A stretch of DNA of 64,000 nt from Haloarcula sp. DT43 (GCF_037078405.1 NZ_JAYMGZ010000003.1:124001-188000); one strand, 5' to 3'. Shown: positions 18,543 through 29,224, counted from the stretch's first letter. The notes: generated by a model not told the origin, from the sequence alone. Program-made: numbers and translations.

Positions 18543-19264
18543 GACTGCGACCCCTCCGGTGCGGCGATAGCGGCGCTGTCCTGTTCCAGCAGCGACGTGA
18601 ACGTCTCGTAGAGCGGGCCGCCGGCTTGGTCCCGCAGAGCGTCGACCGTCCCGGTCCGGACGAGACGGCCGGATTCGAGCACCGCCACCCGGTCGGCGGT
18701 CTCCTCGACCAGCAGCAGTTCGTGCGAACAGAGGACCACGGCGCGGCCGTCGTCGGCTATCGATGCGATGACGTCGAATATGTGCCGACTCATCGCCGGG
18801 TCGAGGCCGCTGGCGGGTTCGTCGAGCATCACGACCGGCGGGTCCCCGGCCAGTGCCTGCGCGATGCCCAGGAGACGCGTCATCCCCCCGGAGAGCCCCG
18901 AGACGGGTCGGGTGGCCACGTCTTCGAGGCCCACACGTTCGAGGAGTCGGTCCGGGTCGTCATCGACGAGGTCGGCGTAGAACGCGGCGGTCTCCCTGAC
19001 GGTAAAGCCCGGCCGGAACGCCGGCCGCTGTGGCAGATAGCCCAGTCGCCGTTGGGCCGCGGGGCCGGCGTAGGAGACGGTGCCGCTGGTCGGTCCCTCG
19101 ACGCCCAGGAGCACGCGCAGGAGCGTCGTCTTCCCGGAGCCGTTGGGGCCGATGAGTCCGGTCACGGCGTCGAAAGGGACGTCGAGCGACACCGCCGAGA
19201 CGGCCGTCACGTCGCCGTACCGTTTCGTGACCTCGTCGGCCGCGAGGTACGTCTCGCCCGTCAC
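18539..19264 (-). CDS. nosF: ABC ATPase NosF
   Basis: 241 residues. Walker A is GLIGPNGSGKTT, the signature is SGLSGGMTRLLGIAQAL, Walker B is PPVVMLDEPASGLDP, and the H-loop His is in VVLCSHELLL. It is the energising subunit of the NosDFY complex. Start and stop each overlap the neighbour by 4 bp (nosD upstream at 19261-19264, nosY downstream), so the three subunits should be made in fixed proportion. Confidence 0.92.
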   Translation of the reverse strand: MTGETYLAADEVTKRYGDVTAVSAVSLDVPFDAVTGLIGPNGSGKTTLLRVLLGVEGPTSGTVSYAGPAAQRRLGYLPQRPAFRPGFTVRETAAFYADLVDDDPDRLLERVGLEDVATRPVSGLSGGMTRLLGIAQALAGDPPVVMLDEPASGLDPAMSRHIFDVIASIADDGRAVVLCSHELLLVEETADRVAVLESGRLVRTGTVDALRDQAGGPLYETFTSLLEQDSAAIAAPEGSQS

Positions 19265-21174
19265 GATGCCCCCGCCGCGGCGGTCTCGTTTCGGAGTCGC
19301 CTGACGGCCTCGGGATTGGCGGGCGCTGCCAGCGGTGCCCGGTCGACGATACTACCCCGGCGGAATCCCGGCGTGGTTCCGCGGAGCGCGCGGAGCCCCC
19401 GGACGCTCGGTGCCGACCCGAGGACGACCGCGGCGTCGGTCCGATGGAGTCGGCGGTCGATGGGGTCGGTCGGCGAGTACGGTTGGGTCAGCACCGGAGC
19501 GGCCCCACCGGTGAGGTCGTACGCGCCGCTCCAGTAGTTCCCCCTCCCCTCGTGAGTGTACACGCGCAGGGGCCCCGGCCCGGAGACGGCGTGGCGGTCG
19601 TTGGCGACGAAGTCGTTCTCTGCCACGACGTTCGACGGGACGGCCGTCGACGCCCGGAGGCCGAGTTCGTTCCCGTAGAGGACGTTGTGCTCGTACAGGG
19701 ACCGACCGGCGTTCGTCGACATCGCCTGGCCGGTGTCGGACACCACGTTGTGGGCGATGTAGCTCCGGGACCCCGCGAGCATGACGCCACTGCCGGCGTG
19801 GCGCACGTCGTTCCCGACGATGGCGTTGGCCACGGGATTGGTCATGACGACGACGCCGGCGTAGGCCTGCCCCCGAGCGGCGTTGTCGGCGACGAGCGAC
19901 CGCGAGGTGTACATCAGGTGGACGCCGAAGCGGTTGTCCCTGAACGTGTTGTTCCGGACGGCGGTCCCGTCGGCCCGGTGGAGGTACACGCCGTCGCGGC
20001 CGCCGTCGAACACCGAATCCTGCACGACAATCGGCCCGTGCATCCCGACGACGCCCATGAACCCATCTCGCCAGTCCGCCGTCCCGTCGACCGTGACGTT
20101 CTCGACGACCGCACCGGGCGTCCGCCGTAGCACGACGCCGCTCGCGGGCGTCTCGACGGTGAGGTCAGCGACGTAGAGCCCGGAGGCGTTGCGACCGGTG
20201 ACGGCGGCGTCGCTGTTGCCGTAGGCGGTGGTCACGGTCGCATCCCAGGCGCTGTCGCTGGCGTTGGTCGGGTCACCCACCGTCGCGTTCCCGACGCCGA
20301 CGATGTCGAACCCGGTGACGCCGACACGGTCGGCGGTCACCGTCACGACTGTGCCGTTCCCGCCGCCGTCGAGCGTCGCGCCGGGGCCGCTGAGGGTGAG
20401 CGGCTTGTCTATCGTCACCCGTTCGGCGTAGCTGCCGGCCGGGACCGCGACTGTCGTGTTCGGCGGTGCCGCATCGACGGCCGCCTGGATGGTCGGCGCA
20501 TCGGGTCCGACTTCGACCGACACCGGTCGGGTCCGGCGCTGTCGCGCCGCCCGGACGGTGGCGTCGGCGTCGCGTCGCCGCGGGTCGACCTGGTTTCGGA
20601 CCGCCGCCGCTCGCTGGAGGTGGAACGACCGACTTTGGAGGGTCTCCCAGTCGACGATTCGCCCGCCACACGACTCGGCAAACGCCGCGGCGTCGGCCCG
20701 GTCGGCGAACGGCACCACGGCCGGCCCGGACGGAACGCGCACCGACCCGTCGACGACGTAGTGGGCCTGGCTGGCTTCGACCCAGTCCGGCGGTGCGGCG
20801 GTCCGCAGAGAGCCGTCGTCGCCACACCGGACCGGCCTGTCGCTGTAGTCGGAGACGTACACCACGAGCGGGTATCCGAACTGCCGTTCGTGCCCCGGTT
20901 CGGCGAGCGCCGTCACGGCCTGGTCGAGACCGACGTAGCCGACGACGTAGCGGTACTGCGAGTAGAAGACCTCGGCCCGGGGGACGCTGACGCTCCGGTT
21001 CCGGGCTATCTGTTCGTCGGCCATCGTAATCCCGCGCTGGACCGTGGTGTCGAACGGGACTGGCTCCGGACGGGCGCTGGTGGTGTCGACAGCGAACGAC
21101 ACAGCGAACACCAGCGTGCCGAGAACCACGGCGAGGAGAGCCAGGAGTTGCGTGGTCGTCAGGGCTGGTCGCAT
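19261..21174 (-). CDS. nosD: NosD with N-terminal NosL-like domain
   Basis: 637 residues from ATG 21174; TGTAATG centred about 28 nt upstream supports this leaderless start over the ATG at 21201. Residues 1-28 form a signal/anchor helix. Residues about 50-180 look like NosL without its metal motif: there is a NosL-type ending VVPFADRADAAAFAESCGG, but the position of CxxCxM reads as FYSQYRY. From about 215 onward comes a right-handed beta-helix of CASH repeats (VTIDKPLTLSGPGATLDGGG and many N-T/D-F/R turns), which is the canonical NosD. NosD scaffolds CuZ assembly on the outside of the cell. The gene heads nosDFY. The fusion puts a chaperone-like module on the scaffold itself; whether it still handles copper is unknown. 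Confidence 0.9.
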   Translation of the reverse strand: MRPALTTTQLLALLAVVLGTLVFAVSFAVDTTSARPEPVPFDTTVQRGITMADEQIARNRSVSVPRAEVFYSQYRYVVGYVGLDQAVTALAEPGHERQFGYPLVVYVSDYSDRPVRCGDDGSLRTAAPPDWVEASQAHYVVDGSVRVPSGPAVVPFADRADAAAFAESCGGRIVDWETLQSRSFHLQRAAAVRNQVDPRRRDADATVRAARQRRTRPVSVEVGPDAPTIQAAVDAAPPNTTVAVPAGSYAERVTIDKPLTLSGPGATLDGGGNGTVVTVTADRVGVTGFDIVGVGNATVGDPTNASDSAWDATVTTAYGNSDAAVTGRNASGLYVADLTVETPASGVVLRRTPGAVVENVTVDGTADWRDGFMGVVGMHGPIVVQDSVFDGGRDGVYLHRADGTAVRNNTFRDNRFGVHLMYTSRSLVADNAARGQAYAGVVVMTNPVANAIVGNDVRHAGSGVMLAGSRSYIAHNVVSDTGQAMSTNAGRSLYEHNVLYGNELGLRASTAVPSNVVAENDFVANDRHAVSGPGPLRVYTHEGRGNYWSGAYDLTGGAAPVLTQPYSPTDPIDRRLHRTDAAVVLGSAPSVRGLRALRGTTPGFRRGSIVDRAPLAAPANPEAVRRLRNETAAAGAS

Positions 21175-21366
21175 CGACCGGGGATACGAGCAGTGGCCCA
21201 TTACAGTGTTTGGTGCACCTCTCGAAACTGACGGCGTCTCCGACCGTCACGGCCGCCGGTTCGGGACGCCCCGAGCGCAGTGCGGCCGCGTGGTGACACG
21301 CTGATAAACTCACCGAGGTTTGACCGAGTAGCTACTTGTATCCCCGTTCCGTTCACGTAGAGTGAC

Positions 21367-23720: not shown

Positions 23721-24266
23721 ATGCCGACCGACCGAGTCACCGTCTCCCTGGACGAGGAGACGAGCGAGACGCTGGGGGAACTGACCGATCGAACCGGTGA
23801 GAGCCAGAGCCAACTGGTCCGCGAGGCCATCGCCTTCTACGCGGCGAACTTCGACTCGGCACACGCCAGCGACAGCGACCACCTGCAGACGTACTACGAG
23901 ATGCTCTCGACGGGCGAGCACGTCCTCCTGGACGTCGACCTGCTGCACGCGCTGTTGCGCCAGTTCGACGACCCGGACGCGCGCGACGAGGAAGTGCTCG
24001 AACTCATCGACCAGGTCGCGCGGTACCACGCCCGGGAGTACGCCGACCGGTTCGACTCGCTCGGGGACGTCCTCGACTGGCTGTCGCTGTGCGGGTTCCT
24101 GACCGTCCGGCGGGACGACGACGGGGGCTTCCACGTGGTCTTCCCGTCGGAGTCGGTGCGGTGGCTGATGATTCGCTTCATCCGCGGGAGCATCGCCGAC
24201 CTGCCGTTCGAGATAGACGTCGAGGAGAGCGTCTCGAAAGTGCTCTTGCGAGAGCGAGCCCAGTGA
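23721..24266 (+). CDS. Ribbon-helix-helix (CopG-like) DNA-binding protein with C-terminal domain
   Basis: 181 residues. Residues 1-45 are a classic ribbon-helix-helix: beta strand RVTVSLDEE, then helices ETLGELTDRTG and SQSQLVREAIAFY. The remaining 135 residues are an acidic mixed helical/beta domain (for example LEVVLELIDQVARYHAREYA-like helices and GFLTVRRDDDGGFHVVF strands) that I do not recognise but that occurs on other haloarchaeal RHH proteins. It lies 138 bp upstream of the Nramp-like/hyuAB operon on the same strand, and the intervening segment holds a near-perfect inverted repeat, so it is a candidate regulator of that operon. Confidence 0.8.
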   Translation: MPTDRVTVSLDEETSETLGELTDRTGESQSQLVREAIAFYAANFDSAHASDSDHLQTYYEMLSTGEHVLLDVDLLHALLRQFDDPDARDEEVLELIDQVARYHAREYADRFDSLGDVLDWLSLCGFLTVRRDDDGGFHVVFPSESVRWLMIRFIRGSIADLPFEIDVEESVSKVLLRERAQ

Positions 24267-24357
24267 GGGGGCCGGCAGAGCGGCGGGGGCGTTCTTACTC
24301 GGTACGCGGCGTTCATACGACCGACGTGGCGACCACACACGGGTCTTAACAACGTTT

Positions 24358-24404: not shown

Positions 24405-25613
24405 ATGGATATTACGCAACGACTCAAAGCCGTCGGCCCGGGAGCGATGGTCGCGGCCGCGTTCATCGGTCCGGGCACGGTCACGACTGCCAGCGTCACC
24501 GGGGCGGAGTTCGGCTACGCGCTCCTGTGGACGATGGCGTTCTCCATCGTGGCGACGATAGTTCTCCAGGAGATGAGCGCGCGGCTCGGCCTCGTGTCCG
24601 GCGAGGGGCTGGGCGAAGCGCTCCGGGGCCGGTTCGACAGCCAGGCCGTCGAGTACGTGAGCATGGGGCTGGTCGTCGGCGCAATCGGCGTCGGGACCGC
24701 CGCCTACGAGGCCGGGAACATCCTCGGCGGTGCCGCGGGACTCGCGACGATTACCGGGCTGGACGCGCGGGTGTGGGGCGTCGTCATGGGGCTGGTCGCC
24801 GGCGCGCTCCTCTACACCGGGCGGTACAAGCTGATAGAGCGGGCGCTGGTGGGGCTCGTCGGCGTGATGGCGCTCTCGTTCGTGGCGTCGGCGCTGCTCA
24901 TCGGTCCCGACCCCGGTGCGATTGCGATGGGGTTCGTCCCCGGCATCCCCTCGGGGTCGCTGTACCTCATCACCGGCCTCATCGGGACGACCATCGTCGG
25001 GTACAACCTGTTCCTGCACGCGAGCAACGTCCAGGAGCGGTGGAGCGGGCCCGAGGACATCGGTCGCTCGCGCGTCGACACGGTGGTGTCAATCGTCGCG
25101 GGCGGCGTGATTACGATTACCATCATGGTGACCGCCGCCGCGGCCTTCGAGCCGGGGACGCAGATAAGCGACATCGGCCGAATGGCCGAACAGCTCCGGC
25201 CCATCGCGGGGCCGTACGCGGAACTGTTCTTCAGCATCGGCATCTTCGCTGCCGGGTTCACCAGCGCGACGACGGCACCGCTGGCGGGCGCGTGGGCGAC
25301 GACGGGCGCGCTGGGCTGGGACTCTGACATGCAGAGCACGCAGTTCCGGGCCGTCTGGGGGACCATCCTCGGCGTCGGGATTCTCTCGGTGTTGCTCGGG
25401 GGCAGCCCAGTCGAAATCATCGTGTTCGCACAGGTGGTCAACGGGATTTTATTGCCAATCGTCGCCGTGTTCCTGATATACGCGATGAACCAGCAGGACC
25501 TCCTGGGCGAGTACACGAACGGCACGGTAGCGAACGCGCTCGGGGCCATCGTGACGCTCATCGTCGTGTGGCTCGGGATTCGAACGCTGCTCGACGTCGC
25601 GGGGGTGCTGTAG
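24405..25613 (+). CDS. Nramp-superfamily transporter lacking canonical metal ligands
   Basis: 402 residues with 11 hydrophobic helices. Overall similarity to Nramp is clear (VGPGAMVAAAFIGPGTVTTAS in TM1, GYNLFLHASNVQERW in TM6). However, the TM1 motif DPGN reads GPGT and the TM6 MPH reads VGY, so the residues that coordinate Mn2+/Fe2+ in Nramp are absent. The hyuA ATG follows its stop with no gap, so the gene belongs to a hydantoinase/oxoprolinase operon. Bacterial 5-oxoprolinase clusters also carry an Nramp-like carrier (Bacillus YcsG), which suggests import of 5-oxoproline, hydantoin or a similar compound here. The function is inferred from context. Confidence 0.83.
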   Translation: MDITQRLKAVGPGAMVAAAFIGPGTVTTASVTGAEFGYALLWTMAFSIVATIVLQEMSARLGLVSGEGLGEALRGRFDSQAVEYVSMGLVVGAIGVGTAAYEAGNILGGAAGLATITGLDARVWGVVMGLVAGALLYTGRYKLIERALVGLVGVMALSFVASALLIGPDPGAIAMGFVPGIPSGSLYLITGLIGTTIVGYNLFLHASNVQERWSGPEDIGRSRVDTVVSIVAGGVITITIMVTAAAAFEPGTQISDIGRMAEQLRPIAGPYAELFFSIGIFAAGFTSATTAPLAGAWATTGALGWDSDMQSTQFRAVWGTILGVGILSVLLGGSPVEIIVFAQVVNGILLPIVAVFLIYAMNQQDLLGEYTNGTVANALGAIVTLIVVWLGIRTLLDVAGVL

Positions 25614-27608
25614 ATGGCGGACCGGACGGTCGGCGTCGACGTCGGCGGGACCTTCACCGACGTGGTACTGTCCCTGGACGGGGACCTGGTGACCGCGAAG
25701 GTCCCGAGCACCGAAGACCAGAGCGAGGGCGTCATCGCCGGCATCGAGAAGGCGTGTGCGGAGGCCAGCATCGAACCCGAGACGATACGGGATTTCTCAC
25801 ACGCGATGACCGTCTCGGTCAACGCGCTCCTCGAAGAGAACGGCGCGAAGACCGCGCTCGTTACGACCGAGGGGTTCCGGGACGTGCTGGAAATCGGCCG
25901 CCAGGACCGCCCGTCGCTGTACGACCTGTCCGCCGAGAAGCCGACGCCGCTCGTCCCCAGACGGCGGCGGTTCGAGGTGGCCGAGCGGACGACGACCGAC
26001 GGGGTCGAACAGCCCGTCGACGAAGACGAGGTCCGGGCGGTCGCCGAGCAGATACGCGAGGCGGGCGTCGAGTCAGTCGCCGTCTCGCTCCTGCACGCCT
26101 ACGCCCACCCGGAGAACGAGACGCGCGTCGCGGAGATACTGCGGGACGAGCTCGACGTTCCCGTCTCAGCCTCGCACGAGGTGCTCGCGGAGTTCCGCGA
26201 GTACGAGCGGACGTCGACGACCGTCGTCGACGCGTACGTCCGGCCGGCAATCGACCGCTACGTCAGCCGCCTCACCGAGCGCGCACGGGACCTCGGCCTC
26301 CCACAGCCTCGGATTATGCAGGCCAACGGCGGGATTACCGACGCCGACACCGTCAGGCGAAACGCCGTGACGACGGTCCTGTCCGGCCCCGCCGCCGGCG
26401 TCGTCGGGGCGGGGTCGATGGCGGGCGACGAGCAGGACGGCCTGGTCACGTTCGACATGGGCGGGACGTCCAGCGACGTGAGCCTCGTCCGCGACGGAGA
26501 GGCCGAGCGGACGACGGAGGGGGTCATCAACGAGCGGCCGATAAAGACGCCGATGGTCGACGTCGAGACGGTCGGGGCGGGCGGCGGGTCCATCGCCTGG
26601 GTCGACGCCGGGGGCGCGCTGCGAATCGGCCCGCGCTCGGCCGGCGCGACCCCCGGCCCCGCCTGCTACGGCAAGGGCGGTACCGAGCCGACCGTCACCG
26701 ACGCGAACCTAGTGCTCGGCTACATCGGCGAGAGCACCAGCCTCGGCGGCGAACTCTCGCTGGACGCGGACGCGGCCCACGACGCGCTGGCGGCCCTCGC
26801 CGAGGAGGCCGGTCTGGACGGCCCGCTGGCGGCGGCACGTGGCGTCTACCGCGTGGCGAACGCCAACATGACCAGGGCCATCCGCTCCGTGACGGTCGAG
26901 CGGGGCTACGACCCCCGGAAGTTCGGCATCGCGGCGTTCGGCGGAGCCGGGCCGATGCACGCGGTCTCGATTGCGGACGGCCTCGACATCGACCGGGTCG
27001 TGGTTCCGCGCGCCTCGGGCGTGCTGTCGGCCTACGGCCTGCTCGCGGCCGACGAGAAGCGCGACGCGGTCCGGACCTACCAGCGGTCGCTCGACGCGGT
27101 CGAGGCCGAGGCGGTCGACGCGGTCTACGGGGAACTGGCCGACGAGCTGCTGGCTGAGGTCAGCGACCGCGAGGCGGCGGCGGTTCAGTACGCCGCGGAC
27201 CTCCGGTACGCGGGCCAGAGCTTCGAACTCACCGTGCCCGTCGACCGGCCGTTCGACACCGCGGAAGCCCGGGAACGGTTCGCGGCGGCCCACGAGTCCG
27301 CGTACGGCTACCGGGCCGAGGAGCCGGTCGAACTGGTGAACTGCCGCGTGACGACGACGGTCGAACGGGACGCGCCGCCGGTCGAGTACGACGCCGAGGG
27401 CGACCCGCTGAAGGGGTCCCGCGAGGCGGCCTTCGCCGACGAGGTCCGCGAGACGCCCGTCTACGACCGGGCGCGGCTTCCCCCGGGAGACGGAATCGAC
27501 GGCCCCGCAATCGTCGAGGGCGACGAGAGCACGATTGTCGTCCCGCCAGCCTGGGGCGTACAGGTGCGCGAGGACGGGGCGCTGATTGCGGAGGTGAGCG
27601 AGGCATGA
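25614..27608 (+). CDS. hyuA: HyuA: hydantoinase A / 5-oxoprolinase ATPase subunit
   Basis: 664 residues. The actin-like ATP-binding motifs are present: VGVDVGGTFTDVVLS at the N-terminus, VTFDMGGTSSDVSL near residue 280, and AFGGAGPMHAVSIAD near 445. The length is that of stand-alone HyuA (about 680). HyuA couples ATP hydrolysis to opening of a five-membered cyclic amide (hydantoin, N-methylhydantoin or 5-oxoproline) together with HyuB. The gene starts directly after the carrier stop and overlaps hyuB by 4 bp (ATGA at 27605), giving a tightly coupled three-gene operon. Confidence 0.92.
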   Translation: MADRTVGVDVGGTFTDVVLSLDGDLVTAKVPSTEDQSEGVIAGIEKACAEASIEPETIRDFSHAMTVSVNALLEENGAKTALVTTEGFRDVLEIGRQDRPSLYDLSAEKPTPLVPRRRRFEVAERTTTDGVEQPVDEDEVRAVAEQIREAGVESVAVSLLHAYAHPENETRVAEILRDELDVPVSASHEVLAEFREYERTSTTVVDAYVRPAIDRYVSRLTERARDLGLPQPRIMQANGGITDADTVRRNAVTTVLSGPAAGVVGAGSMAGDEQDGLVTFDMGGTSSDVSLVRDGEAERTTEGVINERPIKTPMVDVETVGAGGGSIAWVDAGGALRIGPRSAGATPGPACYGKGGTEPTVTDANLVLGYIGESTSLGGELSLDADAAHDALAALAEEAGLDGPLAAARGVYRVANANMTRAIRSVTVERGYDPRKFGIAAFGGAGPMHAVSIADGLDIDRVVVPRASGVLSAYGLLAADEKRDAVRTYQRSLDAVEAEAVDAVYGELADELLAEVSDREAAAVQYAADLRYAGQSFELTVPVDRPFDTAEARERFAAAHESAYGYRAEEPVELVNCRVTTTVERDAPPVEYDAEGDPLKGSREAAFADEVRETPVYDRARLPPGDGIDGPAIVEGDESTIVVPPAWGVQVREDGALIAEVSEA

Positions 27609-29224
27609 CCGACGGCGAGCCGGCGGGCGGGTCCGACATCGACCCCGTCACGCTGGAGATACTCAGAAACCAACTGGAGAGCGTGGCGACGGAGATGGGC
27701 CACGTCCTCATCCGCGGGGCCTACTCCCCGAACATCAAGGAGCGCCAGGACTGCTCGACGGCGCTGTTCGACGCGTCGGGCCGGATGGTCGCACAGGCCG
27801 AGCACATCCCGGTCCACCTCGGCGCGATGCCCGACGCGGTGGACGCCGTGCTCGGAAAGGACCCGAAGCCGGGCGACGTGTTCATCGTCAACGACCCGTT
27901 CGTGGGCGGGACCCACCTCCCGGACATCACGCTCGTCTCGACGATTGCGCCCGACGACGAGGTCATCGGCTACGCGGTCTCGCGGGCCCACCACGCCGAC
28001 GTCGGCGGACGGTCGCCGGGGAGCATGCCGCCCGGCGCGCGCGAGATTTACGAGGAGGGGCTCCGACTGCCGGCGGTTCGCCTCGTCGACGGCGGCGAGC
28101 CAAACGAGGCAGTCCACGACCTCATCCGTGCCAACGTCCGGACGCCGGACGAGCGCGAGGCCGACCTCCGGGCCCAGCGGGCCGCGAACGCGCGGGCCGA
28201 GGAGCGGGTCGGCGAACTCCTGGAAGAACACGGGTCGACTCTGCTCGACGCGTTCGACGCCGTCATCGACTACTCCCGCGAGCGGGTCGAGGCCGAACTC
28301 GACTCGCTCCCGGACGGCACGTACCGGGCCGAAGACGTCCTCGAAGGCGACGGCGTGACCGACGCCGACGTCCCGATAGCGGCGACCGTCACCGTCGACG
28401 GGGCCTCGATAGCGGTCGACTTCGACGGGACCGCCGACCAGGTGGCGGGCAACCTGAACGCGCCGCTGTCCGTGGCCAAGAGCGCGGTCTACTTCGTCGT
28501 CCGGGCAATCACGGACCCGGAGATTCCGCCGAACCACGGCTGTTACGAGCCGGTGTCCGTCTCCGCACCCGAGGGGTCGGTGCTCAACCCGAACCCGCCG
28601 GCCGCGGTCGTCGGCGGCAACGTAGAGACGAGCCAGCGGGTCATGGACGTCACGCTGGCGGCGCTGGCCGTCGCCGCCCCGGACGAGGTGCCCGCCGGCG
28701 GACAGGGGACGATGAACAACCTCATCATCGGCGACCGCGCCGGCGAGTTCACCTACTACGAGACCATCGGCGGCGGGTTCGGGGCCCGACCCGGGAAAGA
28801 CGGGATGGACGGCGTACAGGTCGGCATGACGAACACGCTCAACACGCCCGTCGAAGCGATGGAGACGGAGTACCCGCTCCGGGTCGAGCGGTACGCGCTG
28901 CGGCCGTCCAGCGGCGGCGATGGCCGACATCGCGGCGGACTTGGCCTGGAACGGACCGTCACCGTCGAGACCGACGCCACCGTCTCGCTGCTGACCGAGC
29001 GTCGGCGGACGGCCCCGGCGGGAATCGACGGCGGCGAGGACGGCGCGACGGGGGCGAACCTGGTCGACGGCGAGCCGGTCCCGGCGAAGGCGTCCGTCGA
29101 CGTCGCAGCCGGGACGACCGTCTCCGTGCTGACGCCCGGTGGCGGCGGCCACGGCGACCCGGCGGACCGCGACCCGGACGCGAGAGCGCGGGACCGCCGC
29201 GACGGGAAGGTCGACGACCGCTGA
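27605..29224 (+). CDS. hyuB: HyuB: hydantoinase B / 5-oxoprolinase subunit
   Basis: 539 residues, the normal HyuB length. Characteristic segments are DPVTLEILRNQLESVATEMG, RGAYSPNIKERQDCSTALFD, FIVNDPFVGGTHLPDITLV (metal-type Asp/His) and the glycine-rich TYYETIGGGFGARPGKDG. Near the C-terminus RVERYALRPSSGGDGRHRGG and VLTPGGGGHGDP match the family tail. It is the hydrolytic partner of HyuA. The substrate stereochemistry and ring type cannot be deduced from the sequence. Confidence 0.92.
   Translation: MTDGEPAGGSDIDPVTLEILRNQLESVATEMGHVLIRGAYSPNIKERQDCSTALFDASGRMVAQAEHIPVHLGAMPDAVDAVLGKDPKPGDVFIVNDPFVGGTHLPDITLVSTIAPDDEVIGYAVSRAHHADVGGRSPGSMPPGAREIYEEGLRLPAVRLVDGGEPNEAVHDLIRANVRTPDEREADLRAQRAANARAEERVGELLEEHGSTLLDAFDAVIDYSRERVEAELDSLPDGTYRAEDVLEGDGVTDADVPIAATVTVDGASIAVDFDGTADQVAGNLNAPLSVAKSAVYFVVRAITDPEIPPNHGCYEPVSVSAPEGSVLNPNPPAAVVGGNVETSQRVMDVTLAALAVAAPDEVPAGGQGTMNNLIIGDRAGEFTYYETIGGGFGARPGKDGMDGVQVGMTNTLNTPVEAMETEYPLRVERYALRPSSGGDGRHRGGLGLERTVTVETDATVSLLTERRRTAPAGIDGGEDGATGANLVDGEPVPAKASVDVAAGTTVSVLTPGGGGHGDPADRDPDARARDRRDGKVDDR

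Follow-up and report, generated by a model that had tools for sequence, protein, structure and literature searches.

An Nramp-fold transporter branch without metal ligands, linked to HyuAB in haloarchaea and to other 5-oxoprolinase-type enzymes in bacteria, is a candidate carrier of 5-oxoproline

Although Nramp-fold proteins are described as metal transporters, some of those related to the family have been connected with 5-oxoproline, and a published dispute concerns whether YcsG and MumT carry metal or 5-oxoproline. PxpT, an Nramp-fold protein different from the one reported here, is needed for growth of Corynebacterium glutamicum on 5-oxoproline (PMC13274462), so the Nramp fold can serve 5-oxoproline use. 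YcsG (MntG) was reported to be an Mn importer, and its overexpression raised cellular Mn (PMC10448178); MumT was reported to facilitate Mn accumulation (PMC5050338), and transport of Mn or Mg can persist in Nramps whose site is altered (PMC8806188). One preprint (PMC12873925) assigns MntG to a "G-motif 3" group and describes the remaining Nramp-related groups as uncharacterised, apart from the NRMT-like one. Among the enzymes, eukaryotic 5-oxoprolinases have a fused HyuA-HyuB build of about 1250 aa (PMC8453981). Our literature search on oxoproline or hydantoin use by haloarchaea retrieved nothing relevant.

We analysed a 64,000-nucleotide stretch of Haloarcula sp. DT43 (GCF_037078405.1 NZ_JAYMGZ010000003.1:124001-188000), here called the window, in which genes for a ribbon-helix-helix (RHH) regulator, an Nramp-fold transporter, HyuA and HyuB follow one another on the plus strand. 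The features are as follows.

23721..24266, plus strand: gene for an RHH (CopG-type) protein, probable regulator (PF01402, E 1.2e-9); 88 of 102 haloarchaeal loci have an upstream homologue
24312..24328, plus strand: motif TTCATACGACCGACGTG, candidate operator in the gap between the RHH and transporter genes, one copy in the window
24405..25613, plus strand: Nramp-fold transporter of 402 aa without metal ligands (PF01566, 335 bits; AlphaFold2 model; PDB fold matches)
24468..24479, plus strand: TM1 motif GPGT (aa 22-25), which is DPGN in metal Nramps
24717..24719, plus strand: TM3 residue N105, equivalent to E134 of DraNramp; Asn is invariant in the branch
24996..25007, plus strand: TM6 motif VGYN (aa 198-201), which is MPHN in metal Nramps
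25614..27608, plus strand: hyuA, ATP-binding subunit, proposed 5-oxoprolinase alpha (PF05378/PF01968/PF19278)
27605..29224, plus strand: hyuB, metal-dependent ring-opening subunit (PF02538, 677 bits)

The genes are tightly packed, as a preliminary description of the locus had stated: the transporter TAG (25611-25613) abuts the hyuA ATG at 25614 with no gap, and the hyuA TGA (27606-27608) and the hyuB ATG at 27605 overlap by 4 nt in a common ATGA. The RHH gene, which ends 138 bp before the transporter start, is a member of the conserved cluster in haloarchaea and is the probable regulator of the transporter-hyuAB operon. Alignment of the regions upstream in Haloarcula and Halobellus-type loci shows that CATACGACCGATG-like sequences are retained, and from this conservation in Haloarcula and relatives the TTCATACGACCGACGTG motif upstream of the transporter may be proposed as the RHH operator. 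Near the operon, at 19261-21201 of the window, lies a gene for a NosL-NosD fusion-like protein (PF05573 + PF05048) of the nitrous oxide reductase maturation type.

HyuA and HyuB match the Hydantoinase_A and Hydantoinase_B families with E values of 3e-94 and 2e-203, respectively. The ATP motifs of HyuA (DVGGTFTD at 9, DMGGTSSD at 281 and GATPGP at 344) and the Asp-His-Asp-His metal tetrad of HyuB (D49/H104/D107/H129) place the pair among the HyuAB/OPLAH ATP-dependent cyclic-amide hydrolases. Because this build is also that of hydantoinases and lactamases, haloarchaeal HyuAB might act on another ring, and the operon could import and open a different cyclic amide or imide, such as a 5-substituted hydantoin, a dihydropyrimidine-like ring or another lactam, with the whole branch carrying a range of small cyclic amides. 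The match of HyuAB to hydantoinases and caprolactamase alike favours such a cargo, but the vicinal Cys pair of caprolactamase was sought in HyuB and no CC was found; with the neighbourhood evidence given below, we regard a cargo other than 5-oxoproline as unlikely, though the most serious of the alternatives.

We propose, with a probability of roughly 0.57, that the operon is an RHH-regulated system for scavenging 5-oxoproline (pyroglutamate), consisting of an Nramp-fold importer and a HyuAB enzyme that opens the ring to glutamate. The transporter would take up 5-oxoproline through the LeuT-fold site at the unwound parts of TM1 and TM6, where Gly22, Thr25, Asn105, Val198 and Tyr200 stand in place of the metal-binding residues of TM1, TM3 and TM6. 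HyuA would then carry out the ATP-dependent phosphorylation and HyuB the metal-dependent ring opening, and the conversion of 5-oxoproline to glutamate would supply carbon and nitrogen. The substrate and direction of transport, the ion to which it is coupled (H+ or Na+) and the part played by the replacement residues are inferred. Neither polarity nor coupling can be deduced from sequence; exchangers with a LeuT fold are known, and the weaker fold matches of the transporter model include AdiC and LAT1. Export of glutamate or of the ring-opened product, or exchange of 5-oxoproline for glutamate, could thus be imagined instead of plain import, but the functional analogue PxpT is required in C. 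glutamicum for growth on external 5-oxoproline, and we consider export or exchange very improbable.

The transporter matches the Pfam Nramp profile (PF01566) with 335 bits over profile positions 1-356 of 357, which assigns it to the Nramp superfamily (LeuT fold). Its AlphaFold2 model has a mean pLDDT of 90.9 and a pTM of 0.90, and its best PDB matches are all Nramps, with TM scores of about 0.82-0.90. Alignment to DraNramp pairs D56/N59/E134/M230/H232 with G22/T25/N105/V198/Y200. The preliminary description had noted GPGT in place of DPGN in TM1 and VGYN in place of MPHN in TM6, and had spoken of a loss of metal ligands; both motifs were found, at aa 22-25 and 198-201, and the loss proved to extend to every ligand, including the TM3 change from E134 to N105, which that description did not contain. 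None of the hallmarks of canonical metal Nramps (MntH/DMT), namely DPGN in TM1, MPH in TM6 and Glu in TM3, is present in the transporter (GPGT, VGY, N105). The NRMT magnesium-transporter site, DxxG - TxxA/T, is likewise absent, the aligned positions reading GxxT - TxxV. Across an alignment of the branch (84 rows), G22 is found in 84, T25 in 78 (Ser in the other 6), N105 in 84 and Y200 in 84, and the canonical Nramp rows of the same alignment retain D, N, E, M and H. Public records annotate proteins of the branch as "Nramp family divalent metal transporter". The genome encodes one other Nramp-family protein (L002 1384-2709; G000:C2:628224-629225), with GPAT in TM1 and HITL in TM6; since this sole other member also lacks the metal motifs, no canonical metal Nramp was found in the genome.

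Ligand loss by itself is no proof that metal transport is lost. The transporter could import Mn2+ or Mg2+ for the HyuB cofactor, as has been argued for MumT (with urea carboxylase) and MntG (YcsG), and the metal site of HyuB, the Mn results for YcsG and MumT cited above and the carriage of Mg by EleNRMT through a remodelled site are all in keeping with such a supply. Against it, D56, N59, M230, H232 and E134 are all lost here, whereas NRMTs retain the TM1 Asp and the TM3 Glu, and YcsG and MumT lie on another branch. Nor would a metal supply account for why the transporter is linked specifically to 5-oxoprolinase-type enzymes of three kinds, as described below; the neighbour of one DPGN Nramp in our survey is instead mntR (L046). 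Metal import is therefore judged improbable.

Linkage of the transporter to hyuAB is conserved in haloarchaea. The transporter was present in 112 of the 391 Halobacteria genomes searched. Of the 92 distinct haloarchaeal genomes whose neighbourhoods were read, 89 have hyuA as the very next gene after it in the same orientation (100 of 105 loci when duplicates are counted). Because hyuB occurs only once in the genome of the window, this arrangement is far beyond chance. The three exceptions are G079, in which hyuAB is near but on the opposite strand, and G210 and Natrononativus, which have no adjoining hyuAB. Two haloarchaeal transporters of 53% identity, L204 and L205 (same locus as L036), lack adjoining hyuAB; the isomerase gene follows one and the other retains the RHH gene. 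One haloarchaeal copy (G440:C1:3015879-3017072) has an in-frame TGA stop, and the gene may be broken.

Behind hyuB, a PF17645 gene of the arylmalonate decarboxylase/maleate isomerase/EutA type was found in 47 of the 65 loci with enough downstream sequence (for example L035 11892-12626, L040 11944-12690, L047 11879-12604 and most of L154-L213); it is missing in the Haloarcula loci whose downstream sequence was read, including the window. The two cysteines of the protein are kept in 47 and 48 of 49 copies, and since nearly all copies keep both, the family relationship makes an isomerase or racemase likelier than a decarboxylase; the encoded enzyme may isomerise the D-form of the substrate. This gene has no obvious need in 5-oxoproline breakdown and counts against our proposal. 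A two-cysteine gene in this position recalls the racemases of hydantoin pathways and so lends something to the idea of another cyclic amide, but the protein resembles arylmalonate decarboxylase/maleate isomerase and not hydantoin racemase, and no carbamoylase, nor any further strongly recurrent gene, was found near the haloarchaeal operon.

PxpA and the transporter co-occur in 27 Halobacteria genomes against 14.6 expected, a comparison uncorrected for relatedness, and the excess is perhaps partly due to both being common in the same families. Possession of PxpA alongside the operon in these genomes is a further point for a cargo other than 5-oxoproline. Given the excess of co-occurrence over chance, HyuAB is no mere stand-in for a missing PxpABC, and the idea that HyuAB simply displaced PxpABC in haloarchaea was rejected. 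PxpA is absent from the genome of the window and from 31 of 32 Haloarcula.

The bacterial members of the branch point more specifically to 5-oxoproline. Scanning GTDB genomes with the branch alignment gave 80 loci, mostly bacterial (Pseudomonadota, Bacteroidota, Bacillota, Actinomycetota and others), the bacterial sample being skewed to kin of the query, a Pseudoalteromonas protein. PxpA, PxpB and PxpC are the three gene clusters that keep reappearing next to the transporter, each in 32-33 of the 80 loci. The transporter is pxp-linked in 31 of the 80 loci: in 30, pxpA or pxpB follows it immediately in the same orientation, often with a gap of less than 10 bp, and in one it comes directly after pxpA. 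The next gene in two Bacteroidota loci encodes a HyuA-HyuB fusion of 1252 aa, built like the eukaryotic 5-oxoprolinases mentioned above, and the operon of Natroniella reads pxpA, D-glutamate cyclase (PF07286), transporter, pxpB, pxpC. Of 21 gammaproteobacterial genomes in which the transporter is unlinked, 20 encode PxpA at another locus. Within one order, PxpA is present in 10 of 10 genomes with the transporter compared with 53 of 109 others (Fisher p 0.0012, uncorrected for kinship and with the genes adjacent in some of the ten).

The branch is thus genetically linked to 5-oxoprolinase-type genes in three forms, pxpABC in bacteria, a fused gene in Bacteroidota and hyuAB in haloarchaea, and because one transporter pairs with three kinds of ring-opening enzyme, 5-oxoproline is the likely shared substrate. 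The preliminary description had suggested an organic cyclic amide such as 5-oxoproline or hydantoin. Of this, a cyclic amide remains likely and is narrowed to 5-oxoproline by the pxpABC neighbours of bacterial members of the same branch; hydantoin has become less likely, because there is no recurrent carbamoylase gene and the bacterial proteins most closely related to the transporter are linked to pxp genes.

A maximum-likelihood (ML) tree was built from 51 proteins, leaving out the long outlying rows of a quick 64-protein tree, and the two trees agree. The branch that contains the window protein is united with a support of 95/93 in the ML tree and spans Bacteria and Archaea with nearly invariant replacements at the metal site; the window protein is about 41% or more identical to its members and about 37% identical to an outlying Qipengyuania protein. 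The haloarchaeal HyuAB-linked transporters form one clade (100/99), which groups with the pxp-linked transporters of Alkalihalobacillus and Natroniella (95/90), at 55% and 59% identity among the most similar bacterial proteins, and pxp linkage is also seen in the deepest row of the branch. In the simplest reading, PxpABC would have been the first partner of the transporter, and two later exchanges would have replaced it, with HyuAB in haloarchaea and with the fused enzyme in Bacteroidota. The canonical Nramp rows stand together (100/99), and they, clade B and NRMT all fall outside the window branch, although an approximately unbiased (AU) test did not reject a union of the window branch with the canonical Nramps (p 0.35).

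The preliminary description had also drawn a parallel with Bacillus YcsG in oxoprolinase clusters, but kinship with YcsG was not supported. The PDB model of YcsG (9a52) ranks 20th among the fold matches of the transporter model at 23% identity. MumT-type proteins, probably of the YcsG type, lie on a long, distant branch of the ML tree, a Klebsiella member being 24% identical to the window protein. Membership of the window transporter in YcsG's branch was rejected on these grounds, while a union of the two oxoprolinase-linked branches, which the ML tree separates, was not rejected by the AU test (p 0.20). YcsG and PxpT probably belong with the MumT-type proteins, judging from the 23% identity and the operons rather than from alignment of their own sequences. 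A MumT-type protein searched against the PDB sequences gave no match.

Since MumT-type Nramp-related proteins (Klebsiella plasmids, Acinetobacter MumT, Lactiplantibacillus, Alkalihalobacillus) also adjoin pxp genes, two Nramp-fold branches are tied to 5-oxoprolinase. Alkalihalobacillus algicola has both types, each with its own adjoining pxp genes (L091 5962-9613; L225). The Klebsiella plasmid operon (L215 4748-10918; L219 6001-7242) encodes Nramp, PxpA, D-glutamate cyclase, a fused PxpBC-like protein and biotin carboxylase, the layout reported for mumTLUHC of A. baumannii; this suggests that the compound handled by mum may be 5-oxoproline or something similar rather than urea plus Mn. Motif-less Nramp-related proteins were also seen between Gfo/Idh/MocA oxidoreductases in Halomontanus (L041 3677-7361) and beside a DHDPS-family gene in Neorhizobium (L044 3813-6200), contexts hinting at further organic substrates for the Nramp fold.

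We tentatively extend the proposal to the whole branch, at slightly less than even odds: a second, so far unnamed Nramp-fold branch, distinct from YcsG/PxpT, may consist of 5-oxoproline importers that have come to work with PxpABC, a fused OPLAH-type enzyme or, in haloarchaea, split HyuAB, in which case HyuAB would be the archaeal 5-oxoprolinase. If the branch carries 5-oxoproline, many annotations as "Nramp family divalent metal transporter" mislead, and the YcsG/MumT dispute gains an independent test case in a branch without any metal ligand and with three kinds of enzyme. Haloarchaeal HyuAB would acquire a function, and a metal-type LeuT-fold site would be shown to have been rebuilt for an organic acid. 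At least two branches of a family known for metal transport would in that case carry organic substrates, the function being either ancestral or gained more than once. Haloferax and Haloarcula are genetically tractable.

Compared with known systems, the window enzyme carries the same ATP motifs and metal tetrad as other members of the OPLAH/HyuAB/CapAB family; eukaryotic OPLAH/OXP1 is fused, whereas HyuA and HyuB of the window are encoded by split genes, CapB of caprolactamase has a vicinal disulfide that HyuB lacks, and bacterial PxpABC is unrelated to HyuAB. The transporter has the fold of canonical Nramp/MntH proteins (DraNramp and BfraNramp, TM about 0.82-0.90, with BfraNramp the closest PDB sequence at E 1.6e-44) but none of their DPGN, MPH and TM3 Glu, and it lies outside their clade. 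EleNRMT, an Nramp-related protein that also has an altered site (TM 0.86 to the model), keeps the TM1 Asp and TM3 Glu, has Trp at H232 and falls in a different clade. The hydantoin transporter Mhp1 (NCS1) combines the LeuT fold with a cyclic-amide cargo and gave a weak fold match (4d1a, E 3e-6), but it belongs to a different family, and no sequence match between it and the window transporter was found. Like the window branch, MumT-type rows carry Gly, Asn and Tyr at D56, E134 and H232, respectively; they differ in having F at N59 and G at M230, where the window branch has T and V. PxpT, YcsG and MumT share with the window transporter both the Nramp fold and genes that adjoin those of a 5-oxoprolinase, their partner being PxpABC and not HyuAB; a PxpT-like use of the Nramp fold is already known, and the window operon, best explained as one for 5-oxoproline uptake and ring opening, would make this use of a transporter from a distinct Nramp-fold branch.
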